Assembly: GCF_016756535.1 (NCBI RefSeq)
Contig: NZ_AP023247.1
Coordinates: 3,410,501-3,474,500, forward strand
Source of the DNA: Mesorhizobium sp. 131-2-1
GTDB lineage: Bacteria > Pseudomonadota > Alphaproteobacteria > Rhizobiales > Rhizobiaceae
Direction: 5' to 3'
Length of the DNA stretch: 64,000 bases
In this document: positions 28,555 through 40,520 of the stretch, one piece after another
Layout: each line of letters begins with the position of its first letter
Position numbering within the stretch: the stretch's first letter is position 1
Program-made: the position numbers and the translations under genes
Notes under the pieces: model-generated
Databases searched by the model: none
What the model was told of the DNA's origin: nothing
Seen by the model: the letters and a program-made list of their open reading frames with translations, nothing else

Positions 28555-28599
28555 TGGTGCCCCCGGCAGGGATCGAACCCGCGACCTTCGGTTTACAAA
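28555..28599 (-). pseudogene. 3' half of the host tRNA-Thr(UGU), left junction of the element
   Basis: On the minus strand this reads from the anticodon loop TTTGTAA through ACCGA, the variable loop, the T arm GCGGGTTCGATCCCTGC, the acceptor strand CGGGGGC and ACCA. No 5' half precedes it. Joined to 40442-40479 it gives a complete 76-base cloverleaf with 7-base-pair acceptor (GCCCTTG/CGGGGGC, two G-U pairs) and anticodon stem GCGGT/ACCGA. Confidence 0.92.
28593..28599. repeat. Attachment core, left copy (attL)
   Basis: TTACAAA; the reverse complement TTTGTAA is the anticodon loop. To its left is host tRNA 3' half, to its right element DNA (TTTTATGCC). Confidence 0.88.
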
Positions 28600-28633
28600 T
28601 TTTATGCCAGAGCACCCCAAGGGGTAACGATCC

Positions 28634-28752
28634 ATAACGTTTCTGGAAACAAAAATCAGTAAAATCAACGTATTGACGCCAGCAGAGCATCGGTTTGCAT
28701 AACGCCCCATAACATGCAATAACGTACCCCAGTTTACCCCTGAGGTTACCCC
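28634..28752. repeat. Repeated motifs beside attL, candidate recombinase arm sites
   Basis: ATAACG occurs at 28634, 28699 and 28719 with the variant ATAACA at 28709. TACCCC or TTACCCC occurs at 28725, 28734 and 28746. A TTACCC and a TACCCC also lie just inside the right end (40362, 40375). Arm-type binding sites are expected here for a tyrosine recombinase, but the assignment is inference. Confidence 0.45.
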
Positions 28753-28764
28753 GGAGCGGAGCCT

Positions 28765-30045
28765 ATGCCGATTTCCATCCCTGGACAGTTCAAAAGAGCC
28801 GCAGCATTCATTGACAATTTGGAGCAACCGACCACACGGCAAGAGATACCCGACAGCACTCAGTCCGGGCTCTATCTGGTAGTGCAGCCAAGCGGCGCCT
28901 TGTCGTGGGCAGTGCGGACCAAGATTGATGGCAAAGCGGCCAAAGTGACGATCGGCCGCTATGACAAAGAGGGCAGCAAAGACGACCGCATGGGAACTCT
29001 GATTTCGCCGACGCAAGCGCTCAACGTTACACAGGCTCGTGCGATCGCCGAACGCGTCCGCAACGACGCGAAGCGCGGCAACGATCCTCGGCAACAGAAG
29101 ATCGACAAGACCGGTCTTGCCGCGTGGTTCGATGATTTTGTTAAGACCGCTCGCACCACAGGCTTCAAGGGCAGGGCGGTCAAAGCCTCGACGGCTGAAG
29201 AGTACGAGCGCATCATCGCGACCAATATCAAGCCGCACTGGACCCACGTTACCGACATCAGGACCCTTGACTATCGCGACGTTGAAAAACTCCTGGACAA
29301 GCTGACCCCCGGCGCTCGCCGCAACGCCTTTGCGGTTCTTTCCGCGTTCTTCCGTTGGAAGCCAGTAGCGCGAGCGATCGGCCGCAACATCATCGAGCTT
29401 GCCACGGCACCCGGTAAGCCGATCAGCCGCGATCGCGTGCTAACGCACGACGAAATCAAGATCGTATGGAAGGCGGCAGAGAAATGCGGTTATCCGTTTG
29501 GTCCCATGACCCAACTGCTCTTGTTGACAGGCCAGCGCCGCGACGAGATGGCTGAACTCAAATGGTCCGAAATTTCTGACGATCTGAGCACGATCACGCT
29601 GGAAGCGTCGCGAACTAAGAATTCCCGCCCCCACATCGTACCGATAGCACCGCTGGCTAAGGCGACTATCGAGGCTTTGCCTAGGATCACAGATGCAGAC
29701 GGCAAGCCCTCCGAATACGTCTTCACCACGACAGCGAAAACGCCATTCAGTGGCTTCAGTAACGGCAAGAAAGCGCTAGACAAGCATTGCGGCGAACCGG
29801 CTTTGCCTGAATGGCATCTGCACGACCTGCGCCGTACGTGCGCCACGGAACTTGCACAACTTGGCGTCAAGCAAGAAGTGACCGAAGCAATCCTAAACCA
29901 CAAAACTGGCAAAGTGAGCGGGGTTGCCGCCATCTATAACCGCTACGAGTACCAGGATGAAAAACGCGAGGCTTTGAAGCAGTGGGCAAGCCGTATCCAG
30001 GCCCTCATTGCAGACAATGTGACATTGCTAAAAAAGCATGCCTAG
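28765..30045 (+). CDS. Tyrosine-recombinase integrase of the island
   Basis: Integrates and, with a helper, excises the element at tRNA-Thr. 426 residues. The N-terminal part (about 1-110) is the DUF4102-like arm-binding region with LYLVVQPSGALSWAVRTKIDGK. A core-binding helical domain covers about 120-215. The catalytic domain has Arg in TGQRRDE (258), Lys in RTKNSRP (285), His-x-x-Arg in HLHDLRRT (353-356), His in LNHKTG (379) and the nucleophile Tyr in IYNRYEY (Tyr391 likely). The ATG follows GGAGCGGAGCCT. It is read away from attL, into the element. Confidence 0.95.
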   Translation: MPISIPGQFKRAAAFIDNLEQPTTRQEIPDSTQSGLYLVVQPSGALSWAVRTKIDGKAAKVTIGRYDKEGSKDDRMGTLISPTQALNVTQARAIAERVRNDAKRGNDPRQQKIDKTGLAAWFDDFVKTARTTGFKGRAVKASTAEEYERIIATNIKPHWTHVTDIRTLDYRDVEKLLDKLTPGARRNAFAVLSAFFRWKPVARAIGRNIIELATAPGKPISRDRVLTHDEIKIVWKAAEKCGYPFGPMTQLLLLTGQRRDEMAELKWSEISDDLSTITLEASRTKNSRPHIVPIAPLAKATIEALPRITDADGKPSEYVFTTTAKTPFSGFSNGKKALDKHCGEPALPEWHLHDLRRTCATELAQLGVKQEVTEAILNHKTGKVSGVAAIYNRYEYQDEKREALKQWASRIQALIADNVTLLKKHA

Positions 30046-30054
30046 CTTGCGCCC

Positions 30055-30951
30055 CTAGTCGGCATCGTTCCCACGGGTGTGATAGCGAGCTTTGTCCGGA
30101 GCAATGACAACGCGGGTTTCCGTCGCCTCTCTTGTCGGGTTGATCGTCCTGTTCCGGGAAGCGGTAGTGTAGCGATGGCAAAACCTCGTGTAGCGAGGAC
30201 ACCCATATCCGTCGTCGTAGTACGCTATGCCCCACACATAGATGTTGTGGTCAACAGCTTCGAAGATTTCCTTTATGGGGATTCTATGGGCGTTGTAGCA
30301 CCCCTGCCGCATGCTCCCGTTGGGATGAACGACGCGCTCGGTTTCGGATCGGCCTCCAGGCGTTTGGAAGTCCGCCCGGCGGTATTTGGGTTCCACGTTT
30401 CTTTCAGACATTTCCATGTAGACGAATAGTGACACGTTCCGTGCAGGCAATTTGCCGACGTTTTGAAGTAATACGTGCCCCATAGCCTCAGTAGTCCCGA
30501 TCAGTTGGTTGATCCCGTCGGGAACGACAGCGAGGTAAGCCCGCAGTTCGCGTTTGGAGGTTTGCTCGGCGTGGGCGAGCGTTTTATTGGCAGCTATGGC
30601 TCCCGTTTCGGTGTGCTTGGCAGCCCTTCGCGCATATATCGCAGCTGCGACAGCGGCAGCGAAGGTTAGGCCACCTATAAGAGTTCCTATGCCAGCCCAC
30701 ATCGCGGACTGCTGGGCCGCGTCCGCAGCCTTCCATTGAGCACACAAATCTGAGTTGCGGTTGTCCACGCCCGCTCGGCATGGGGACTGGTATTCGGCCG
30801 CCTGCTGGCTTTGACCTGGCGTGCCGAAAGACAGGTCTGATTGTTGGACAACAACTTGTCTGATGGGCTCTCGCTCATCGGGGGGCAATGCTGCTCCTAG
30901 AAGAACCGCCCCGGAAGCCACAATGACAATATGCCGATAGCGATTAAACAT
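30055..30951 (-). CDS. Membrane protein of unknown function, island-borne
   Basis: About 298 residues from the inner start MFNRYRH; a GTG nine codons upstream is possible. There is an N-terminal hydrophobic segment (IVIVASGAVLLGAAL) and a second span at about 95-120 (MWAGIGTLIGGLTFAAAVAAAIYA). After these comes a soluble domain starting with a helical stretch (TLAHAEQTSKRELRAYLAV) and beta-rich sequence (HVLLQNVGKLPARNVSLFVYMEM). This layout is common in hypothetical proteins of rhizobial prophages and islands. Its end is convergent with the integrase gene, 10 bases away. No function can be assigned. Confidence 0.7.
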   Translation of the reverse strand: MFNRYRHIVIVASGAVLLGAALPPDEREPIRQVVVQQSDLSFGTPGQSQQAAEYQSPCRAGVDNRNSDLCAQWKAADAAQQSAMWAGIGTLIGGLTFAAAVAAAIYARRAAKHTETGAIAANKTLAHAEQTSKRELRAYLAVVPDGINQLIGTTEAMGHVLLQNVGKLPARNVSLFVYMEMSERNVEPKYRRADFQTPGGRSETERVVHPNGSMRQGCYNAHRIPIKEIFEAVDHNIYVWGIAYYDDGYGCPRYTRFCHRYTTASRNRTINPTREATETRVVIAPDKARYHTRGNDAD

Positions 30952-31439
30952 CGAAAGCCCCCCCCCGGCTGCCGACACAAATTACGCTCGGTTTTGCGAA
31001 TGTCGAGCCCGGCCCGTCGAGCGGGCAGATTTACCCGCCCTATTACCCGACATACCAGAACGGCACCGTACTCTGTCCGTAAGTGGCTGAGGCTAATGCG
31101 AATTCTGTCGGTTGAGCATCAATTCTCGGATTTGCGGCTCAGAGTACCTCGCTCCCGGAGGCCCCCTGCGGCAGGAGGCTAGGAAGGGGTTGAATGGCCC
31201 GGCCCCATCCCCGGGGAGGTTCCCCCAGGCCCCTCGGTGGGCCCCGGCCGTCGATGTGGGGCCCCACCGCGTGGTGCAGGAAGGTTTCAAAATTCTTTGT
31301 TCTCTCCACGTGTCCTTGCGCTCCTTCGCTGTCCCACTGTCCCACCCCCTTTAAAAAGGGGGTTTGGGACACTCGTGGAGACAGGCGCGGATAGGTTTTT
31401 TTGGCGGGACGTTATTCTGTCCCGTGTCTCTGTCCCAGG
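30952..31439. other. Non-coding stretch with a repeat cluster
   Basis: About 490 bases without a credible gene between two minus-strand genes. It holds the GTCCC repeat and hairpin cluster at 31330-31437 and a C/G-rich segment at 31150-31280. Confidence 0.6.
31330..31437. repeat. TGTCCCA repeats with a long inverted repeat
   Basis: TGTCCCA stands at 31330, 31338 and 31431, TGTCCCG at 31418, and inverted forms at 31365 (TGGGACA) and 31405 (CGGGACG). Between 31338 and 31371, TGTCCCA-CCCCCTTT-AA-AAAGGGGG-TT-TGGGACA makes a near-perfect 15-base-pair hairpin. It lies next to the RepA-like gene, so an origin or operator is possible; a terminator for that gene is the plainer alternative. Confidence 0.6.
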
Positions 31440-32471
31440 CTAAGATGGTTGCCGGCCCCCTGTCAGTAACCGTTGAACCGAACTCTTGGATTTGCCTACC
31501 AAGGACCCGATTTGGCGGACAGTGTTCCCTGCGGCTGCCAGCTCTTTGACTTGCTGAATTTGGACACTCTTGGGCAAGGATTTCATGTCCCAATAGCCTA
31601 CGTTGTTCTCTTCGCGAAATTGTGCCTCAAAAGGTTCGGCATCTTCGCCGAAGAAACCGCGATGTTTTTCGAAGTGGATCTCAAATCGGCTCCCGTCGCT
31701 TTCCTTGTAGCCCTTTGGTTGGCACAGCTTTATGACCGTATCGAGCGGGTCTTCGCGCTTAGAGGTTCCGCGCTGGGTTCCACTCTTTCCGGCGTGATGG
31801 ACAAATAGCACTGTCACTCTGTGCCGACGGAGCATGAGTAGCCAATCTTGTACGGGTGCCCATGCATCATCCGTGTTTTCGGACCCAGTACGCGTCAGCG
31901 TCGACAGGTTATCTAAAATCAACAAGTCGGCTTGGGTCGGACCTCCTAGATCCAATGCCTTATTTACGGCCTCTCGGCCGGATGGATCATCGCTGGCAAG
32001 GTCGGGAATACCCTGTTCTTGAAGGTCAGCCGCAAACAGACGCAGAAAACCAGGCTTTGGTTGGACCTTGAGGCCAGCTACCATCCAATTGACGCGTTCC
32101 TGCAAGTCAGCAAAGGCCATTTCGCCGTCGACATAGAGCACACGGCGCGGGCATGGGACCTTCCAGCGTAGGAAGTCAGTTCCAGTTGCGACCGCGATTG
32201 CAACGCCCAGACTAAAGAAGGTCTTTCCGACCCCTCTTTTCGAAAATATTTCGACCAACCCTTTTTCGGGAATTATGGGCTCCATTATTTTCTTGCGGCG
32301 AGGAACAACCTTGGTTGACCATTCATCCCAGTCGAGAATGACGTAACCCGGGGGGGCGGGAATAGAAGCTTTCGAAGAACCCGGCTGCAGGGCAGGTCGA
32401 AGCGACTTAGCGGAGGCATTTGGTCTTCCAGCATCCTGTTGCCGGGTGGCGGCTGCCTGAACTGTCGTCAT
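31440..32471 (-). CDS. RepA-like AAA ATPase (RecA/DnaB-type fold)
   Basis: 343 residues. After a Pro/Ser-rich N-terminal 60 residues comes an AAA_25-type ATPase: a variant Walker A in SKRGVGKTFFSLGVA, a Walker B-like LLILDNLSTLTR, and the sensor VLFVHHAGKSGTQRG, all usual in plasmid RepA and phage helicase-type proteins. The C-terminus has a small HTH (GNTVRQIGSLVGKSKSSVQRLL). It probably acts in replication or maintenance of the excised element. Its ATG (32471) overlaps the AlpA-like stop as ATGA, a sign of coupled translation. Confidence 0.82.
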   Translation of the reverse strand: MTTVQAAATRQQDAGRPNASAKSLRPALQPGSSKASIPAPPGYVILDWDEWSTKVVPRRKKIMEPIIPEKGLVEIFSKRGVGKTFFSLGVAIAVATGTDFLRWKVPCPRRVLYVDGEMAFADLQERVNWMVAGLKVQPKPGFLRLFAADLQEQGIPDLASDDPSGREAVNKALDLGGPTQADLLILDNLSTLTRTGSENTDDAWAPVQDWLLMLRRHRVTVLFVHHAGKSGTQRGTSKREDPLDTVIKLCQPKGYKESDGSRFEIHFEKHRGFFGEDAEPFEAQFREENNVGYWDMKSLPKSVQIQQVKELAAAGNTVRQIGSLVGKSKSSVQRLLTGGRQPS

Positions 32472-32719
32472 TGGTGGCAGCCCTTTTGCACTAATCCAGA
32501 ACCGGCCCTGCGCGTCTCTTCCCACGTGGCTAGATCACTCTCCAGCCAATAGCGATTTCTTCCAATGTATAAGGGCTTGGGAAAGCCGAGGTCGCTTCGA
32601 AGCCATCGCCATAGGGTCATCAGGCTGATGGAATAGCGCTCCGCCACCAGTGAGGCAGGTAGAAAGTGGGCTCTCGGACTATTGCTTGGGATGTGGGCCT
32701 GGCCCGCGTCGTAGACCAT
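32468..32719 (-). CDS. AlpA-like HTH regulator
   Basis: 83 residues with an excisionase/AlpA-type winged helix: LPASLVAERYSISLMTLWRWLR, then PKPLYIGRNRYWLESDLATWEETRR. Such proteins activate the integrase or act as excisionase in P4-type islands. GGAAGGCTAAA precedes the ATG. It overlaps the RepA-like gene by four bases. Confidence 0.82.
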   Translation of the reverse strand: MVYDAGQAHIPSNSPRAHFLPASLVAERYSISLMTLWRWLRSDLGFPKPLYIGRNRYWLESDLATWEETRRAGSGLVQKGCHQ

Positions 32720-33259
32720 TTTAGCCTTCCATGGTGCAGCACTGCCAGATCGCAGGCACCGTCATTGCTCTAAGAATTGAGTTCATCGAAATCTCCTATC
32801 ACCATCGCGAGATTTGCCGTGCGGCTCTCTGTGTCGGCATTTGATCGTCGCTACGTGCGAAAGGTAGGAAGTTTGAAACGCCGTTCAAGGGCATTAACTT
32901 GTTGATTTCTTTATCGTTTAAACGCGAAATGGATAGTGCGGACCAGACCGTGCTGGCGGCTCAATGGGGCCAAATGGTGCGGTACTGTCCCGCTCGTCAT
33001 AACCAGGGGCGAGCAGATTTCAGCACAGCGTTAGCCATGCTTTTCCCCGTCGCCGGCAGCGTCCAGCTTCTAGCCCCCATTGCCAGTCCGCAAAATGCCA
33101 TTGGGGCTATGGATTGGCTCTATTTATCCACCATTAGAGATTTGAATTTGCAGCCAAAGAGGGGCTTTTTGGGCACTGCATCAGGACGATCTTCAAGCGG
33201 CCTTGGAGCGCTGCCTGATCGTCGTTCGTCACCCCTTCGCCCTTCACTGCGTGGTTTAC
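32720..33259. other. Gap with no convincing gene
   Basis: About 540 bases. One open frame at 32899-33294 on the plus strand has no good ribosome site and an unconvincing composition. The A+T-rich part at 32890-32935 may hold the promoter of the minus-strand AlpA/RepA pair. Confidence 0.45.
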
Positions 33260-34369
33260 TTATTGCACCCCCGCTGATGTTTGGAGAGTTCTAGGCTGAC
33301 CCCCAATTGTGACGTGGACTTTGCCATCTGCACCGGGGGTAGGATTATTCTTCTGCGCCCACGCAATCGCGTCAGCAGGCGTTTTGAAGTCCGGGAGTGC
33401 AATTGGATCTGAAGTTATTGAAGCCCCTCCTAGGCCTTCTGTGACCGCCTGAATGGCATCCTGGCCGGATTGCAAAATCGACTTTCCGGTCTCTGCTGCA
33501 TGGCTCAGGATCAACAGCATGAGGCCTGCAATGATCCACGCGGTAATCCGTATAGAGGGCAAGAGACTGGCCGTGTGAACGTCGGCAACAGACGGTCGAT
33601 TTCCTTCGGCAAGGTATTTTGCGCCAATCTCGTTGGAAAGTTTGGTTGGCTCGTTGGAAAGTTTGGTTGGTCTCTGAAGTTTTCGCCAGTATTCCTGGTT
33701 CTTTGGGAACTCTCTCCAAAAGCCATCAATCGCGGTCCGCAAGGAAGGCCAATCGTCAATCTGGCGCGCAACGGTCTCTTGGAATGCCTCGGTCTCTTTC
33801 AGATAGGGGCCTGACGTCAGGATGCGGCTGCTAGCCAAGTGCAGCTTCAATCCGTTAGTGTCTTCAAGCACTGTAATTGGCCCGTAAAGAAAGTGCCGGG
33901 TGATATAGCGCCGCGTAAGAGCGCCATTTGAGAAGACGTCGCCAATGTCAAACAGGACATCTCGTATCCATCGTAAGATCTCATCCTTAAACAGAACTAG
34001 AGCCGCGACAAGAAACAACCCAGCTTGGGCCTGGCGGGAGAGGGTCCAATCAACGGCGTAGGAAGCTGCAAGGACGAAGGCGACGCCGATTAATATTTTA
34101 GGCAAGTGTCTTATTAGCGCTGCGGGAAGTCTCAGTACGTCGATGACCAAGGCTGCCATCCGGCTAAATAGCACTAGGAGGGCAGTGCTTTCGCCCCATC
34201 GTTCGCTTTGCCCCTGAGCCCAGAGGGCAAACATCACTGCCTCGATGGCCGCCTTTTGATCTGGCGTCTGCTTAGCGATGCCACTTGCGGCAATGGCACC
34301 CTTAAAGTCGGTAGATTGGATTTTCTCCGTGAACTGGTCCGGGCGGCCAAACGGCCAATCGGTGGACAT
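33260..34369 (-). CDS. Island-borne membrane protein, unknown function
   Basis: 369 residues. Hydrophobic spans at about 75-125 (two, LPKILIGVAFVLAASYAV and AGLFLVAALVLFKDEIL) and a third near 285 (ITAWIIAGLMLLILSH) divide it into a cytosolic N-terminus, a middle domain and a short C-terminus. The middle holds a duplicated PTKLSNE heptad. GGAGGCTAACTAGA precedes the ATG. I recognise no family. Confidence 0.7.
   Translation of the reverse strand: MSTDWPFGRPDQFTEKIQSTDFKGAIAASGIAKQTPDQKAAIEAVMFALWAQGQSERWGESTALLVLFSRMAALVIDVLRLPAALIRHLPKILIGVAFVLAASYAVDWTLSRQAQAGLFLVAALVLFKDEILRWIRDVLFDIGDVFSNGALTRRYITRHFLYGPITVLEDTNGLKLHLASSRILTSGPYLKETEAFQETVARQIDDWPSLRTAIDGFWREFPKNQEYWRKLQRPTKLSNEPTKLSNEIGAKYLAEGNRPSVADVHTASLLPSIRITAWIIAGLMLLILSHAAETGKSILQSGQDAIQAVTEGLGGASITSDPIALPDFKTPADAIAWAQKNNPTPGADGKVHVTIGGQPRTLQTSAGVQ
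33630..33671. repeat. 21-base tandem duplication inside the membrane-protein gene
   Basis: TCGTTGGAAAGTTTGGTTGG plus one base occurs twice in a row, adding seven residues (PTKLSNE) in frame. This points to recent replication slippage. Confidence 0.9.
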
Positions 34370-34459
34370 TCTAGTTAGCCTCCGGTTTCGGGGCGAGCTG
34401 CTCCAATTTTGTTCAGTATATCGAGGTGTATATCTTGAGCAACTGGGTTCGTTTCCCGC

Positions 34460-34681
34460 ATGGATTTGCGGGACGTGCTGGCTGCTAATTTACGTCGACT
34501 GAGACATGCAAGGGGGCTGTCGCAGGACGATTTGGCATATGAGGCCCAGGTCAGCCGGAGCTATCTCAGCCAGATCGAGAAGGGCAAATATTATGCGAGC
34601 CTCAGGATCATCGAGCAGCTCGCCGTGGTTCTGCAAGTCGAGCCGTGGGAACTCTTGAAGGGCCCGGGGAATGGGCATTAG
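34460..34681 (+). CDS. XRE-family (Cro/cI-type) HTH regulator
   Basis: 73 residues, almost entirely one HTH_XRE domain: DVLAANLRRLRHARGLSQDDL, then AQVSRSYLSQIEKGKYYAS and LAVVLQVEPWELL. It probably represses island genes. It diverges from the membrane-protein gene at 34369, which it may control. Confidence 0.88.
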   Translation: MDLRDVLAANLRRLRHARGLSQDDLAYEAQVSRSYLSQIEKGKYYASLRIIEQLAVVLQVEPWELLKGPGNGH

Positions 34682-34987
34682 CAGCATACATCTAAGATCG
34701 TGTCAGTGGCCTTCGACGTTGGCCCGTATCAAGATTTGGGTTATGGGCGTCGAATTCGAACAAGCGGAATGCCAAGGACGATTTGGTGCGAAATGCAGCA
34801 CACCAGTAAGGTTAGAAGACTGGCTAGAGACGACTAACCGGAAACCGCTAAAAGCCTTGGAAATGAGGGGCTTTCGAAGACTTGGCGGACGGAGTGGGAT
34901 GCCAATTCTCGGCGTACGGGATTGATCTTGCTGAATTTTTATCAGCTACGGCATCGCCTATACCAAGGATTGGACCAAGAATTGAAA
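34682..34987. other. Gap with no convincing gene
   Basis: About 300 bases. Short frames on the plus strand have no ribosome site. I see no repeat. Confidence 0.4.
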
Positions 34988-35922
34988 TCACCGCCCATCG
35001 TCGTCGCCCTGCGGTTTTTGCGCAAGCCTGAAGCTGGCCGCTCGGTTGTAGTGCTCGACGTCGACCGGATCGAAAAAGTCTCGTCGGTAGAAGAAGCTAT
35101 CGGGAACATCCTTGGCTTCCCCTCCTTGTGCCTCCACCATTGGAATTAAACTCTCCCTAGCAACTTTGAGCGCGAGCCCTTGAACCAGCGAATTCAAAAC
35201 CACCGGCATATCCATCAAAAAGCGCCAAAATCCGTTGGTGCTGATTGGAGAAGTGCGCTCATGTGGTTCTCTATAAACCATATGTTGCAGAAACAGCCCG
35301 CTGCCTTCATCCAAGACACATAAACCGTCAACGTGAACCTCGCCCATTTTTCTGGTGACAGTGTCGAACATTTGGGAGAGGGTTTTTTCGCTGGGTCCTT
35401 CGTAGCCAAATATAAAGAAGCGCGGAGGCAGGCTACCAGAATATTGCTGATGCGCGACTAGCTCTCTTGGTCTTGGCACCAGCGGCCTAAGATATTGCTT
35501 ATTAGGCTTGCCATCTGATGTTTTGCAAAGGGACTGGATACGGGAGAATTTTTATTAAACGCGTCTGCGAGCTCTGTTGTGTCTATGCGGGTTTTGACTT
35601 CAATGACCCCGTAGACCATCTCTACAGGATATACCTGCCATGCTTCGGACGTATAGAACGGAGCGTTGTTGATCGCATCATAGATGATGATGTCACACTG
35701 GGCGCTCTGGTCTATCTTTTCTCCTCCGGATACCAAGAACCCAGTTCCGATCCCAAATTTGGGCGGCAGATAACTGCGTAGCATTCGAACGAGATGGGTT
35801 TCGTTTAGGCGACCAATTTCGCCACGATGGGACGTGAGTGAACTGAAATATTCTCGCTCTAGCCGCAGCTTCGCTATGTTGCCTGCCATCAGTTTTTCGA
35901 TATTGAATTCGAACGATGCCAT
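34988..35922 (-). pseudogene. DUF6602-type nuclease-like gene with a frameshift
   Basis: Two consecutive minus-strand frames make one protein. The first (from ATG 35922, MASFEFNIEKLM) contains QCDIIIYD and VYGVIEVKTRI, an Asp...Glu-x-Lys pattern of the PD-(D/E)xK nuclease type. It runs out of homology at MASLIS and stops by 35458. The second continues as KQYLRPLVPRPRELVAHQQYSG in another frame, through GYEGPSEKTLS to 34988. A one-base loss near 35494-35504 (ATTGCTTATTA) joins them. DUF6602 proteins often sit in defence islands; the activity is unproven. The second part could start at a GTG at 35479, but the break is more likely a mutation or sequencing error. Confidence 0.75.
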
Positions 35923-36019
35923 GGCCCGCCCCGCTTTTCCCCGCAGTTCTCCGCGAGACTTATCGCACAACGTAATTGGGCGGCCAATGGCCCCAATTTG
36001 CAGTCACGCAGTGTTCAGA

Positions 36020-36220
36020 TCAGAACGCTGTGCGAGCCCTCGATCGCCACGACGGCGAGATCGCGATAGCGGGCCATGGCCCTATGGCCGCCGCGCGGGG
36101 GTATTGGCCGTCTTCTTGATAGTTTCGTGTGGACTGGTGCGCCAGGTGCGCCGCGAAGCTCACCGCCTCGGCGATCTTCTCGATGTCGGATGCGTCGGCA
36201 GGGCGCAGTTTTTTCGCCAT
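36020..36220 (-). CDS. Short unknown protein (66 aa)
   Basis: Begins MAKKLRPADASDIEKIAEAV with a good GGAGGA site six bases before the ATG. The second half (GPWPAIAISPSWRSRARTAF) looks odd, while another frame over the same bases reads MARYRDLAVVAIEGSHSVLI, which is more protein-like. A frameshift in a small gene is possible. The segment is more GC-rich than the rest of the island. Confidence 0.4.
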   Translation of the reverse strand: MAKKLRPADASDIEKIAEAVSFAAHLAHQSTRNYQEDGQYPRAAAIGPWPAIAISPSWRSRARTAF

Positions 36221-36345
36221 GGAAGTCCTCCGTTGATGGTGGACAGTCCAGTTATCGCGACGACAAAAAAATGCAACTCTGGCTTACAATGCCTCGAATG
36301 CGAGTTCGGGATGAGCGATCAGATTGACAATCGGGGAGGCGGGCT

Positions 36346-37389
36346 TTGACAGTCGACAAAGTTTATTCCAAGGCCGACAAGCGCCGGAAGCGTCCCATCG
36401 ACAGATTGAGAGAAGGTGCGGGCGTGATGGACGTCGGCGATAGCAGTGAAGGTGCAGTTGTGGGCATGGTGCCGACCAGGAAATCGCTTTTAATAATCAA
36501 AGAGCGCGCGGTCTACGCGCTACAGCTTGCGGATCAGGTGGATCCAAAACGGAAGAACATTCACGTCCCTAACAGCATGCAGCTTGTCGCTAAATCTGGC
36601 TCGCAGTCGAACGAGGTAAGGCGAACCCTATCGACTGCGGAGGCGCTGTTCACGAAATCCTTTTTTCCATCCGATGAAACTCGTGAGGCCTGTTTAGAGG
36701 CTTCAATTGCGACAATGAAGGAGCTCCTTGCGACTGCGCAAATAGCAGCTCAATTCAAGACCGATCAGGAAGCGGCCGAGCAATCCTATGAAGGGGTGCC
36801 CAAGTCCCGAGCACTGCGGCTTCCAGCGGTCACCGAAGTCGAGAGCCGGGCGAAGAACTTTATCTTGAAGGCTGAGAGCACCCTTCAATCCATTTTCGAT
36901 ATTGCCCGGGTCTTTTATGTGGAGGAATTGGCGAAAAAAGGGTGGCCCGATAATCTGGTTGTTGCTGTTGAAAAGAGAGCCGGGAGCGACGCGAATTTCA
37001 CGAAATTTGCACGCGCTCTGGCCGACTTCATCAAATTAATACGGAACGCTCGCCATTGCGTTATTCACCAGGACGAAACGAAATGGCTTGAATTGTCCGA
37101 CTTCCGGTTGACCCCACAGAATACCGTTAACCCACCGTCGATTGCGATCGTCCACCCCCATACGCCGATGAATGAAGTCCCGCTGCTCGCGTTTATGACG
37201 GACGTCGTAGACAAGATCGGTGAAGGTGCCGAGCAGCTTATGGCGCATTTAGCAAGTGCCCATATGGAGCGGGTCGGCAAGCTTCCAATCGTTCTAAATT
37301 TTGTGCCTGAAGAGCAACGGCGAAAAGACACGCAAGTTAGATACGGCTATTTCATCCTGATGGGTGACGAGTGGGTTAAGCTTGGCTAG
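36346..37389 (+). CDS. Unknown protein with a HEPN-like R-x4-H motif
   Basis: 347 residues starting with TTG after GGGGAGGCGGGC. The N-terminal 40 residues are basic. The centre (about 90-240) is largely helical, and RNARHCVIHQDE at 233-244 contains R-H-C-V-I-H (Arg236...His241), the spacing of the HEPN ribonuclease motif, with a second Arg-Asn just before it. The C-terminal third is more beta-like. HEPN assignment rests on this motif and helical context only. It sits beside the DUF6602-type and TcmP genes, as defence genes often do. Confidence 0.6.
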   Translation: MTVDKVYSKADKRRKRPIDRLREGAGVMDVGDSSEGAVVGMVPTRKSLLIIKERAVYALQLADQVDPKRKNIHVPNSMQLVAKSGSQSNEVRRTLSTAEALFTKSFFPSDETREACLEASIATMKELLATAQIAAQFKTDQEAAEQSYEGVPKSRALRLPAVTEVESRAKNFILKAESTLQSIFDIARVFYVEELAKKGWPDNLVVAVEKRAGSDANFTKFARALADFIKLIRNARHCVIHQDETKWLELSDFRLTPQNTVNPPSIAIVHPHTPMNEVPLLAFMTDVVDKIGEGAEQLMAHLASAHMERVGKLPIVLNFVPEEQRRKDTQVRYGYFILMGDEWVKLG

Positions 37390-37746
37390 GCCGGACGGTG
37401 CGCGATACGGGTCCGAAGTTCCACCTAGGCGACGCTGCGCGGGGCTCTTGAGGTCAGCCTTCGAGGCTCCCAGGCGTGGCTCTACCATCTGGGGTCAGCG
37501 ATCCGGCGCGCTGATACGCAGCCCAATTCCGGTGTCGGGTCTACGAACAGAATTTCCATCGTTTAGCTCCGTTGTCACAAAAGGCCCAAAAGCCGTCACA
37601 ACGTGAGCAAAAACGGTCGCGGGGAGCAAATTGGAAATGAGGCTTTGTTTCCAACTGCTTTCCGCTATTTTTCCAATCGCGTGTCGGAAGAGTAGACGCA
37701 GGCGTTTCAATACGCGTATGAATAGAGAGCTTTGGGGGCGTTGCCA
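37390..37746. other. Gap with no convincing gene
   Basis: About 350 bases. No frame with a ribosome site on either strand; it probably holds the promoter for the TcmP gene. Confidence 0.45.
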
Positions 37747-38664
37747 TTGACGTCGCACATATTTGGGGGGCCTGACACCCCGAAGAAATTGCGGTGCTTG
37801 CAAAAGTATTTGCAAGCCTTCGCGATCGCTTTGCGAGACCAGCAATTTGCTTGCGTCTACATCGATGCGTTCGCCGGGTCAGGGTCGCGAACGGAAGTCC
37901 GCCCGGGCATCCCGCTCTTTGGATCAGAACTTGCCGAACCGGAAGAGGTGACGACACCGGGGTCAGCCAGGATCGCCATCGAAATCAATCCTCCGATGCA
38001 CTCAATCGTGTTGATCGAGCAGGATAGCGCTCGCTTCGCGCAGCTCCAGGCGTTGAAAGCTGAATATCCAGACCGTCAGATAATTCCTCGGCAGGGCGAT
38101 GCCAATGAACTTGTCCAGCGCCTTTGTCGAGGCATGAAGTGGCGAGGATCAGAGAAGATCGGTCGCGGCGTTCGTGGCGTCATTTTCCTCGATCCCTATG
38201 GGATGGAAGTGTCGTGGGCTACGGTGAAAGCCATCGCAGATACCGAGGCTTTAGACTGCTGGTATTTTTTCCCCCTTTCCGGCCTGTATCGAAACGCCCC
38301 TCGCGACCCGACGAAGCTTAGCTCTGGAAAGCAGGCGAGCCTCGATCGGGTTCTTGGTGCCACGGATTGGCGTGAGCGCTGGTACGATCACAAGAATACC
38401 TCTCGGGATATGTTCGAGGACGCCGATCAGGCTATTCGACGCGCCGACGTGGACGCTATCGAGAGGTATGTGAAGGAGCGTCTGCAGACCGCGTTTAAGG
38501 GCGCGGTGCTTGATCCTGTTCGGCTGCACCATAAAAACGGACCACCGCTTGCGTCACTCTTTTTTGCGGTCTCAAACCCTAGCCCGCCAGCGGTCGCCCT
38601 CGCGACGAGAATGGCCTCTCACATCCTCAGTTCGGGCAGATCGTCCCAAACCCGGTCGCGGTAA
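37747..38664 (+). CDS. tcmP: Three-Cys-motif partner protein TcmP (methyltransferase-like)
   Basis: About 305 residues. The start is probably TTG at 37747 (TSHIFGGPDTPKK), with TTG at 37732 as an alternative. YIDAFAGSG at 39-46 looks like a SAM-binding motif I. IVLIEQDS (about 87-94) fits the acidic loop, and GVIFLDPYGMEV (DPYG at 149-152) resembles a DPPY catalytic motif. KTEVG-like and WYFFPLSG blocks complete the family pattern. TcmP proteins are found next to DUF5131 (phage Gp37/Gp68) three-Cys proteins. The chemistry is not established. The 3' end overlaps the convergent partner by 46 bases. Confidence 0.82.
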   Translation: MTSHIFGGPDTPKKLRCLQKYLQAFAIALRDQQFACVYIDAFAGSGSRTEVRPGIPLFGSELAEPEEVTTPGSARIAIEINPPMHSIVLIEQDSARFAQLQALKAEYPDRQIIPRQGDANELVQRLCRGMKWRGSEKIGRGVRGVIFLDPYGMEVSWATVKAIADTEALDCWYFFPLSGLYRNAPRDPTKLSSGKQASLDRVLGATDWRERWYDHKNTSRDMFEDADQAIRRADVDAIERYVKERLQTAFKGAVLDPVRLHHKNGPPLASLFFAVSNPSPPAVALATRMASHILSSGRSSQTRSR

Positions 38665-39365
38665 ACCCGACCGGTCGCCTTCTTGTTCCTTCCGCCCCAT
38701 TGCTTGAAAAAGAATGCCGCGTCCGCGTCGGTGCACCGGTCGAATATCTCGTCCACCCATCGTGTTTCGAGCGGCCTTGCATTCGGTCCACTTTCCCCGC
38801 CGACGATCGCCCAGTGTATTCCCTTGAGGTTGGCGTCCTGGACGGACCCGATCAGCGGCTCAAACGAAACAAATCTCACTGCCGCTGGCACTTCCCGCAA
38901 GTCATCAAGCCGATGAAGGACGCGGCTATCTTCGACGCTAGTACCAAGCCAAACGTTGGGCAGTTTCGGCAGGGCAGGAACGATTTCCTTCATCCGGTCC
39001 GGTCGCTTTGTGAGAATTTGGTATGTGTGGTGCTGCGTGTCGGCCATCACGGTCCAAACCTCTGCGATGAATTCAGGCGGCACGTCCTGATGAAAAAGGT
39101 CCGACATCGAGTTTACAAAAACTCGCCTTGGCCGCTTCCAACCGATTGGGATCGAAAGCGAGGCTTTGTCGAGCCTGATTTGGCCTGTCCACTTGGCACG
39201 GCCGCCGGTTTTCCGGGTGAGGCCGGAATACTTCTCGGCCCCCATGGCTTCAAGGCGAGCAGCCATCCTCATTGCGTAGCAGTTGGTGCATCCAGCTGAG
39301 AGGATTGTGCATCCGGCAACCGGGTTCCAAGTTGCATCCGTCCATTCAATCGACGTTTCAGCCAC
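38619..39365 (-). CDS. DUF5131 (phage Gp37/Gp68) three-Cys-motif protein
   Basis: 248 residues. SIEWTDATWNPVAGC begins the family signature; Cys19, Cys26 and Cys29 form C-x6-C-x2-C (GCTILSAGCTNCYA), which could hold an iron-sulphur cluster as in non-canonical radical-SAM proteins. Other blocks are FVNSMSDLFH, ILTKRPDRM, WLGTSVED, FEPLIG and WAIVGGESGPNARP, ending FFFKQWGG. The family occurs in phages and islands, paired with TcmP. A nucleic-acid modification role is an inference. Confidence 0.85.
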   Translation of the reverse strand: MAETSIEWTDATWNPVAGCTILSAGCTNCYAMRMAARLEAMGAEKYSGLTRKTGGRAKWTGQIRLDKASLSIPIGWKRPRRVFVNSMSDLFHQDVPPEFIAEVWTVMADTQHHTYQILTKRPDRMKEIVPALPKLPNVWLGTSVEDSRVLHRLDDLREVPAAVRFVSFEPLIGSVQDANLKGIHWAIVGGESGPNARPLETRWVDEIFDRCTDADAAFFFKQWGGRNKKATGRVYRDRVWDDLPELRM

Positions 39366-39666
39366 AGATCACCTTGCCCACTTCGCCGAAGAGACTGACA
39401 CAAATAGTGTAAATGCATGTCTAAGGCTTTTTTCGGGGGATCAGCACACAAGCCCTTCGTATTCCGACGCCCTTCCTCGCTATAACGACGGCGTGTCTTA
39501 GAAAGAGCAGGAGACGCGAGTTGAGAAAGGCCGAAGTTGCACTGATATTCTGTTCTCTCGGCTCTGGGGCATGTGCCGGGTTTCATAAGACGGCAGCAAC
39601 AGCAACGAAAACACCCCGTTCGTTGAGATTGGCGAATGCTCTCGAATTAACTGACGCCCGGCGTGC
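39366..39666. other. Gap with no convincing gene
   Basis: About 300 bases upstream of the DUF5131 gene and downstream of the next minus-strand gene. I see no structure beyond a probable promoter region. Confidence 0.4.
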
Positions 39667-40221
39667 CTAACCTATTCCCAAATCGGCGGCATAGCCTCTG
39701 GCGAAAATCATAGCTTCGCGAGCGATATCAATGGCTCGTACCCCCCGAGGCTCGTTGAATACGGCATTCGCGCGGGTCTTCACTGGACGCAATTGCAGGC
39801 CGCCCTCGTGGCCAACTGTCCAGTTCGAACTCCCCGACGAAATTGAAACCACGCCGTTATTTACGATCATCTCTTCAATGTAGACAGGTTTGGATGGATC
39901 TTCCGGACCTATAGTCATAGCTTTGACCTCACCCACGGTGGAGCTGCCTTCGGCGTGCGCCTCGGAATTGCGCGCTTCCCAAGCGTAAGTGAGCGTTTGG
40001 TCTGCCACGCGGGTCGAATGCCTCGTTTGCCTTATATGCTGGCGCTGCGTTTCATCCGCGAAGTGGTTCATGACTTCGACTGCGCGTCGCCATTTGATAA
40101 GGAAGTCCTCCCAACTCTCCTGTTTCCGATGAACATCGGCAATGATGGAGAAGCGTGCCATCTCTTCGGACGCAGCTCGTAGAAGCCGTCGTATCTTTGC
40201 CTCGGTCTCTGAATTCGTCAT
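39667..40221 (-). CDS. Unknown protein with a HEPN-like R-x4-H motif, next to tRNA-Thr
   Basis: 184 residues from ATG 40221 (MTNSETEAKI). The first 80 residues are helical and charged (WEDFLIKWRRAVEVMNHFADE). WEARNSEAHAEG at 82-92 contains R-N-S-E-A-H (Arg84...His89), the classical HEPN R-N-x3-H pattern at the start of a helix. The rest is beta-rich (YIEEMIVNNGVVSISSGSSN). HEPN proteins are often RNases, several of which cut tRNA. This gene sits 61 bases downstream of the island's own tRNA-Thr and on the same strand. Confidence 0.6.
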   Translation of the reverse strand: MTNSETEAKIRRLLRAASEEMARFSIIADVHRKQESWEDFLIKWRRAVEVMNHFADETQRQHIRQTRHSTRVADQTLTYAWEARNSEAHAEGSSTVGEVKAMTIGPEDPSKPVYIEEMIVNNGVVSISSGSSNWTVGHEGGLQLRPVKTRANAVFNEPRGVRAIDIAREAMIFARGYAADLGIG

Positions 40222-40281
40222 GAGGTTCAATCCAACGAGCTCAAACCGTTACCTATGTCTTCGGGCTGTACAGAAGCCGAG

Positions 40282-40357
40282 TGGTGCCGCCTGAGGGACT
40301 TGAACCCCCGACCAATAGTTTACAAAACTACTGCTCTACCAGCTGAGCTAAGGCGGC
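40282..40357 (-). tRNA. tRNA-Thr(UGU), carried by the island
   Basis: A complete 76-base cloverleaf including CCA: acceptor GCCGCCT/AGGCGGC, D arm GCTCAGCTGGTAGAGC, anticodon stem GTAGT/ACTAT with loop TTTGTAA (anticodon TGT), T arm GGGGGTTCAAGTCCCTC. It differs from the split host gene in the acceptor, anticodon and T stems but keeps the same anticodon loop, so it is not a simple duplicate. It probably replaces the function lost by insertion. Confidence 0.95.
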
Positions 40358-40441
40358 ACATTTACCCGTACGTATACCCCTAAACCAGGCTAGGAAAAAA
40401 AATCACGTCTTTCCAACACCTTAGCCGATTGATCCAGCGAA

Positions 40442-40448
40442 TTACAAA
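40442..40448. repeat. Attachment core, right copy (attR)
   Basis: TTACAAA, with island DNA on the left and the host tRNA-Thr 5' half on the right. Confidence 0.88.
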
Positions 40449-40479
40449 ACCGCTGCTCTACCAGCTGAGCTACAAGGGC
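40442..40479 (-). pseudogene. 5' half of the host tRNA-Thr(UGU), right junction
   Basis: On the minus strand: acceptor strand GCCCTTG, D arm GCTCAGCTGGTAGAGC, anticodon 5' strand GCGGT and loop TTTGTAA. Sequence after that (TTCGCTGGATC) has no T arm, so this alone is not a tRNA. Confidence 0.92.
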
Positions 40480-40492
40480 ACGGCGCTCCGGT

Positions 40493-40520
40493 AGCATATT
40501 TCGTGCGCCAGTAAAGACAA
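40493..40520 (-). promoter_or_regulatory. Probable promoter of the host tRNA-Thr
   Basis: Reading the minus strand, TTGTCT (-35) is separated by 16 bases from TATGCT (-10), which ends 13 bases before the tRNA 5' base. Transcripts would pass the 5' half, about 84 bases of island DNA, then the complete island tRNA-Thr on the same strand. Confidence 0.55.

Follow-up and report, generated by a model that had tools for sequence, protein, structure and literature searches.

The 64-kb window analysed here (the whole stretch of 64,000 nucleotides from Mesorhizobium sp. 131-2-1; G000:C1:3410501-3474500, in a 7.1-Mb genome of two contigs) contains a small integrative island that splits a host tRNA-Thr(UGU) gene and carries a complete tRNA-Thr(UGU) gene of its own. 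The island, an 11.8-kb integrase element, measures 11,849 bases from core start to core start. Read along the minus strand, the order is a promoter-like pair, the host 5' half, an 84-nt spacer, the complete tRNA-Thr(UGU), the island body, the tyrosine integrase gene and the host 3' half. The features of the two ends are as follows.

28555..28599, minus strand: host tRNA-Thr(UGU) 3' half, the attachment junction on the integrase side, ending in the core TTTGTAA
28593..28599, no strand: left 7-base core TTACAAA (anticodon loop)
28600..28764, no strand: integrase-side attachment arm with clustered TACCCC/GGGGTA-type repeats, which are putative arm sites
28765..30045, plus strand: tyrosine integrase, 426 residues (Pfam Phage_integrase and Arm-DNA-bind_3, above cut-off)
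40282..40357, minus strand: complete replacement tRNA-Thr(UGU) of the element (ARAGORN, TGT; Rfam)
40358..40441, minus strand: 84-nt spacer, the element attachment arm, with a core-proximal conserved block, an A/T-rich inverted repeat and two arm-like GGGTA repeats beside the tRNA
40442..40448, no strand: right 7-base core TTACAAA
40442..40479, minus strand: host tRNA-Thr(UGU) 5' half
40493..40520, minus strand: host promoter-like hexamers TTGTCT-16-TATGCT, unchanged in four aligned genomes, including two with damage to the 5' half

The two host halves overlap only in TTACAAA (reverse complement TTTGTAA), the 7-base anticodon loop. Joined in silico they form a 76-mer, in which 7/7 acceptor, 4/4 D, 4/5 anticodon and 5/5 T positions pair. 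Neither half is called as a tRNA by ARAGORN or Rfam, and no functional tRNA is rebuilt at either junction. The host 5' half runs directly into the spacer, where neither an element-borne 3' half nor an ARAGORN tRNA is found; a classical tRNA-restoring island at this site was rejected because no 3' half stands behind the 5' half. An earlier interpretation made from the window alone, hereafter the sequence-only reading, had proposed that the gene is split at the anticodon loop and replaced rather than restored from the 3' side. Both points were borne out, as the halves and the core were confirmed, empty sites were found, and the spacer follows the 5' half with the complete tRNA-Thr(UGU) beyond it. 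The G/A mismatch atop the native anticodon stem was considered as proof of a hybrid gene and discarded; intact native genes of other genomes have the same bases, and the mismatch is thus native.

The empty site, which the sequence-only reading had suggested looking for in other Mesorhizobium genomes, is widespread. Of 146 genomes of the genus, 132 gave a match to the joined tRNA gene and its promoter that spans the junction (85-100% identity), which excludes a chance pairing of the halves. Thirty joined loci (L002-L030 and L036) were compared base by base: 12 are identical to the joined halves of the window, whose sequence the others miss by 1 to 5 bases. In G071, both host flanks bracket the joined gene within about 3 kb. 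The remaining 14 genomes comprise seven with a split gene and a replacement tRNA (window included), three with a divergent 75-nt tRNA-Thr(UGU), and four drafts without an assigned state (G109, G114, G150 and G157). The divergent tRNA (G005, G006 and G110; loci L034, L033 and L130) lies near the same host flank; upstream of it in G006 is a stretch similar to the old promoter and 5' half. It is possibly an older replacement or a divergent native gene. A second native-type tRNA-Thr(UGU), whole or partial and with a promoter-like sequence upstream, was also observed in G089 and G092 (L089 and L090) and, by the search table, in G087, G164 and G166. In G089 and G092 the second copy is about 1-1.5 kb away and the outer copy is decayed. 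Such second native-type copies are another route of gene exchange at this site.

ARAGORN reports one tRNA-Thr in the window, with anticodon TGT, at 40282-40357 on the minus strand. It differs from the joined native gene at 18 of 76 positions and is fully paired in its stems (acceptor 7/7, D 4/4, anticodon 5/5 and T 5/5), in agreement with the different, complete tRNA-Thr(UGU) that had been placed 84 nt past the 5' half from the sequence alone. Of the 49 Rfam tRNA hits in the genome, 45 have an ARAGORN anticodon (those without are L075, L077 and both hits in L076), and the only UGU tRNA-Thr among them is that of the element. The other tRNA-Thr genes have the anticodons CGU and GGU. A loop-plus-T-arm pattern, which overlooks some T-arm variants, among them that of the native gene, occurs in one place in the genome, the element tRNA gene, and the native tRNA-Thr sequence is found only as the two halves. 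A second intact native-type tRNA-Thr(UGU), the observation that the sequence-only reading had named against itself, was not found by the Rfam, ARAGORN, pattern and native-sequence searches of the genome, of which the tRNA search is not exhaustive. As no other reader of ACA codons was found, loss of the element tRNA would be expected to be lethal. Among 397 genomes sampled from the order (E <= 1e-14), only G012 besides the window's own genome matched the element tRNA within the host family; the best matches outside the genus reach 88%, in another family.

The same layout of host 3' half, integrase gene, cargo, tRNA, 84-85-nt spacer and host 5' half was identified in G088, G123 and G332, the last of which belongs to another genus of the same family. 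Their integrases are 80%, 83% and 76% identical to that of the window at the amino acid level, and their core-to-core lengths are about 12.4 kb, about 12.2 kb and 11.2 kb, respectively. In G088 and G123 the cargo differs from that of the window, and the replacement tRNA has two differences from the window's. G332 has an 85-nt spacer and a tRNA sequence unlike the window's. The 5' halves of the three genomes are native, and the 3' halves correspond to a native variant that occurs joined in G081 and G147. In addition, the host 3' half lies next to an integrase of 82% identity at the end of a contig from a metagenome-assembled genome (G150, L091).

In four other genomes the island is eroded. The promoter region is retained in G141, G012, G031 and G026, as is a replacement tRNA at a spacing of 122-123 nt, but only about 2.1, 3.1, 3.7 and 2.9 kb of the island remain, respectively, measured from the tRNA to the far host flank or, in G012, to the decayed 3' half. 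No integrase was detected by tblastn in G141, G012 and G031, and G026 has a broken integrase remnant (79% over 62 residues). Judging from the small size of the remnants, the eroded loci have probably lost cargo. The 5' half is intact in G031 and mutated in G141, G012 and G026, whereas the replacement tRNA of these three loci retains every stem pair. In some archaea, tRNA genes are split, and the halves are transcribed apart and then joined in trans. A similar joining of the host halves would agree with the native sequence that both halves retain in the window, G088, G123 and G332; intact halves are, however, also explained by recent insertion or reversible excision, and a complete tRNA is present every time. 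Trans-joined halves were rejected on account of the mutated 5' half in three eroded loci, and we regard the chance that they account for the locus as negligible.

Three types of replacement tRNA can be distinguished: type A in the window, G088, G123, G012 and G141, type B in G031, and type C in G026, G332 and G140. Types B and C differ from the window's tRNA at 13 to 18 bases, and the G031 tRNA has one unpaired anticodon-stem position, like the native gene. From these loci, the foreign tRNA appears to have been locked in recurrently after decay of the element. The sequence-only reading had suggested that the swapped tRNA would act as an addiction device without a toxin; on such a view, the essential tRNA was selected for preventing island loss. 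Deletion of the right end should be lethal, as no UGU tRNA-Thr other than that of the element was found. This view is nonetheless weakened by the four loci of about 2-4 kb, which lost the integrase, or all but a remnant of it, and most of the island yet kept the tRNA: the tRNA seems to guard itself, not the island. Moreover, the native gene would be restored by precise excision, and an ordinary tRNA-restoring island should be just as difficult to lose at the end where it restores the gene. Selection for addiction is therefore an improbable explanation.

The state of the element tRNA was related to that of the native gene. By stem pairing, the element tRNA is intact in 8/8 split genomes (the seven in the genus and G332, with G031 counted as intact despite its one unpaired position) versus 1/5 genomes in which the native gene is joined (one-sided Fisher test, 0.007). 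Among the latter, the element-type tRNA of G062 has a changed acceptor start and is one base short, and that of G028 is not called by ARAGORN. G081 has two element-type tRNAs, one decayed and one broken by an apparent inversion, while in G147 the element-type tRNA lies elsewhere in the genome and pairs at 1/4 D-stem and 5/7 acceptor positions. These data bear on the view that the tRNA is mere translation cargo whose match with the target is coincidental. Transfer RNA genes are common on mobile elements, 25 being reported in phage-related sequences of S. meliloti (PMC11476347). Yet the same isoacceptor is found in 8/8 split loci, three tRNA sequence types occupy one fixed place, and damaged copies of the tRNA are confined to genomes with a joined native gene, which leaves coincidence very little probability.

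We conclude that the window island is very probably an integrative element using tRNA-dependent integration. The reading rests on the split, the empty site, the conserved layout, the sole UGU tRNA-Thr found and the erosion with the tRNA kept, all of them features read from sequence. The tyrosine integrase would recombine the TTTGTAA core with the host tRNA-Thr(UGU) gene, breaking the gene without restoring it. The same-isoacceptor tRNA outside the attachment arm would thereby land 122 nt downstream of the 5' end of the broken gene, on the same strand, and, probably driven by the host promoter, take over the ACA codons. If the element is still active, its precise excision would rejoin the native gene. 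Where the element decays first, the foreign tRNA would become a permanent, presumably essential, chromosomal gene.

Several observations weigh against this interpretation. An intact type-C tRNA is present in G140, about 198 kb from the joined native gene. The tRNAs of G062 and G147 are still called by ARAGORN, and a count based on ARAGORN alone gives 8/8 versus 3/5 (Fisher test, 0.13); the count of 8/8 versus 1/5 uses the author's judgement of damage, and the genomes compared are few, related and not independent. The Rfam tRNA search of the genome listed neither tRNA-Ile(GAU) nor tRNA-Ala(UGC) and is therefore incomplete. The integrase was found only in G000 and G332 among 394 family genomes sampled (E <= 1e-90), so the integrase group is rare. 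Finally, a generic consensus scan reported neither the proposed host promoter nor any other, which makes a promoter of the element possible.

As a separate observation, in G140 (L083/L150) an element right end with the type-C tRNA adjoins an unrelated integrase gene, off the native site.

The source of the transcript was considered further. The sequence-only reading had placed the host hexamers correctly (on the plus strand, AGACAA at 40515-40520 and AGCATA at 40493-40498) and had remarked that the element tRNA is positioned where this promoter could drive it, which its place in line with the hexamers allows. The hexamers are identical in the window, G031, G012 and G026. Because they are unchanged at loci with a damaged 5' half, the host promoter is the likely driver of the element tRNA. 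The distance from the start of the 5' half to the start of the tRNA is 122 or 123 nt in 8/8 split loci, and the spacer measures 84 or 85 nt in eight aligned loci (seven split loci, G026 left out, and G140); its conserved length may reflect only the integrase-binding layout. The same replacement system could instead depend on an element promoter in the spacer, as the tRNA of mycobacteriophage Fionnbharth has its own promoter (PMC10865867), a TATACG stretch is visible near the tRNA on inspection, and the intact tRNA of G140 is far from the host promoter. No consensus promoter was found in the spacer by the scan, which also missed the proposed host promoter; the host hexamers persist where the 5' half is damaged, and the G026 spacer is without the TATACG stretch. 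An element promoter is accordingly the less favoured source, although it deserves to be kept in mind. The scan of the spacer found no terminator either. A hairpin predicted in the spacer was dismissed as an RNA structure, and none is claimed, because two-sided changes occur at only 2/20 of the predicted pairs, with a small covariation term.

A set of four 6-mers, picked after the arms had been inspected, is clustered in the arms; the integrase-side arm contains 7 of the 24 motif hits in the whole 64-kb window. Similar repeat clusters occur at the same position in G088, G123 and G332. As a window-wide signal, RTTACCCC was rejected, with 2 hits, no more than expected by chance.

Other arrangements at the same site bear on how tRNA-dependent integration evolved. 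In G020, G007, G022 and G029, the joined tRNA runs directly into an arm with GGGTAAC repeats similar to those of the window island, and no further tRNA follows. From the arm alone, these loci may be read as 3'-restoring elements; the 6-20 kb of neighbouring sequence inspected yielded neither a relative of the window integrase nor a displaced 3' half. A joined tRNA together with a detached 3' fragment, as is typical of ordinary islands, is present in G071 and G149; in G071 the two are on different contigs, and their link is presumptive. The 3' half is followed in G028 by an arm of about 80 nt and in G081 by one of about 78 nt, and in both a decayed tRNA stands at the arm's outer end. The distance from the core to the tRNA is about 118 nt in G028 and about 116 nt in G081, compared with 84 nt in the window, and the excess of 32-34 nt is near the 38-nt length of the 3' half. 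The simplest order is that the tRNA was gained at the edge of the arm and the 3' half was lost afterwards, while the reverse order is possible. No arm in which both the 3' half and the downstream tRNA are intact was found at this site.

Tentatively, and with somewhat less than even confidence, we propose that tRNA-dependent integration arose here from tRNA-restoring sites. Gain of a same-isoacceptor tRNA at the arm edge would have made the 3' half in the attachment site of the element (attP) dispensable, and its loss would have freed the element from matching its target, leading to repeated, irreversible replacement of an essential tRNA across the genus. The site provides a natural series, mostly within one genus, of empty sites, joined genes with a bare arm, joined genes with an arm and a decayed tRNA, complete tRNA-dependent elements, and eroded loci with a foreign tRNA. 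The series suggests a route by which mobile DNA exchanges an essential, supposedly conserved tRNA gene. It also offers a design for integration vectors, in which the replacement tRNA is set in line with the target's own promoter.

The principle is already published. The term tRNA-dependent lysogeny was introduced for mycobacteriophage Fionnbharth and its relatives (Guerrero-Bustamante and Hatfull 2024, PMC10865867). That report describes the evolutionary link with tRNA-restoring systems as unclear and calls for study of how prevalent the mode is beyond actinobacteriophages. As in that system, the island has a tyrosine-family integrase and a short core (7 bases here), no tRNA is rebuilt at the junctions, a tRNA of the disrupted isotype, tRNA-Thr(TGT), is encoded, and no other gene copy of the disrupted tRNA was found in a search that is not fully exhaustive. 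In contrast with Fionnbharth, the target is tRNA-Thr(UGU) in an alphaproteobacterial host, the tRNA adjoins the attachment arm and is aligned with the host promoter, whereas that of Fionnbharth has a promoter of its own, and eroded, locked-in cases are seen. No phage structural genes are recognised, so the island works alike without being filed as lysogeny. In S. meliloti, integration of prophages inactivates tRNA-Leu(UAG), which is replaced by a foreign tRNA of the same isoacceptor (PMC11476347). That case likewise involves a rhizobial host and a foreign same-isoacceptor replacement, but it concerns prophages and another tRNA, whereas the empty-site series, the fixed spacing and the erosion belong to the present one. 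For phiLM21-like prophages, PMC12429752 reports no replaced tRNA. Classical islands, as catalogued in Islander (PMC4383910), restore the target gene with their own 3' half. The window island shares with them an integrase, crossover in the anticodon loop and a position between two tRNA parts, but does not restore the target in this manner. Among the papers listed in searches of an open-access library, none was seen to describe this element or the replacement of a tRNA-Thr(UGU). What is new is the small island without recognised phage genes, the position of the tRNA immediately beyond the attachment arm and in line with the host promoter, the recurrent lock-in of the foreign tRNA, and two attachment arms in which a 3' half is combined with a decayed tRNA, an arrangement that bears on how this mode evolved.

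Besides the integrase gene, the island body contains the following genes.

31440..32525, minus strand: AAA_25 ATPase, primase/helicase-like by PHROGs
32468..32719, minus strand: small helix-turn-helix protein, excisionase-like, below curated cut-off
35458..35970, minus strand: DUF6602/NucC-like PD-DExK protein (cargo)
37732..38664, plus strand: TcmP, three-Cys-motif partner (PADLOC candidate defence PDC-M41A)
38619..39365, minus strand: DUF5131 protein (PADLOC candidate defence PDC-M41B)

When 11 open reading frames of the window were compared with G088 and G123, the integrase was found to be common and the helix-turn-helix protein to be weakly shared (32-33% amino acid identity). No phage structural family was found among the nine open reading frames scanned in PHROGs, smaller ones being left out, and the temperate phage with superinfection immunity that characterises tRNA-dependent lysogeny is accordingly not recognised in those nine. 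A virus origin was discarded, as a pattern-based search found no close integrase relative in viral contigs, and 346 phage records match at less than 60% identity in all cases. A plasmid origin of the right end was likewise set aside, since none of the 110 matching records reaches 80% coverage of the query; in the 10 matches listed, the match corresponds to query positions 118-199, the tRNA part. The convergent, overlapping TcmP and DUF5131 genes (37732-39365) constitute the PADLOC candidate defence pair PDC-M41. At 34988-35970, two overlapping open reading frames are present in different frames, one being NucC/DUF6602-like, and a single gene broken by a frameshift is possible.

Elsewhere in the genome, two of the tRNA hits are unusual. 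L153 (C1:5135447-5135528) combines a long variable arm and a Leu/Ser-like body with the ARAGORN anticodon GTT (Asn), an odd combination. L076 (C1:3048514-3048649) contains two tRNA-like sequences 4 bases apart, one of which is called by ARAGORN with its type unassigned.

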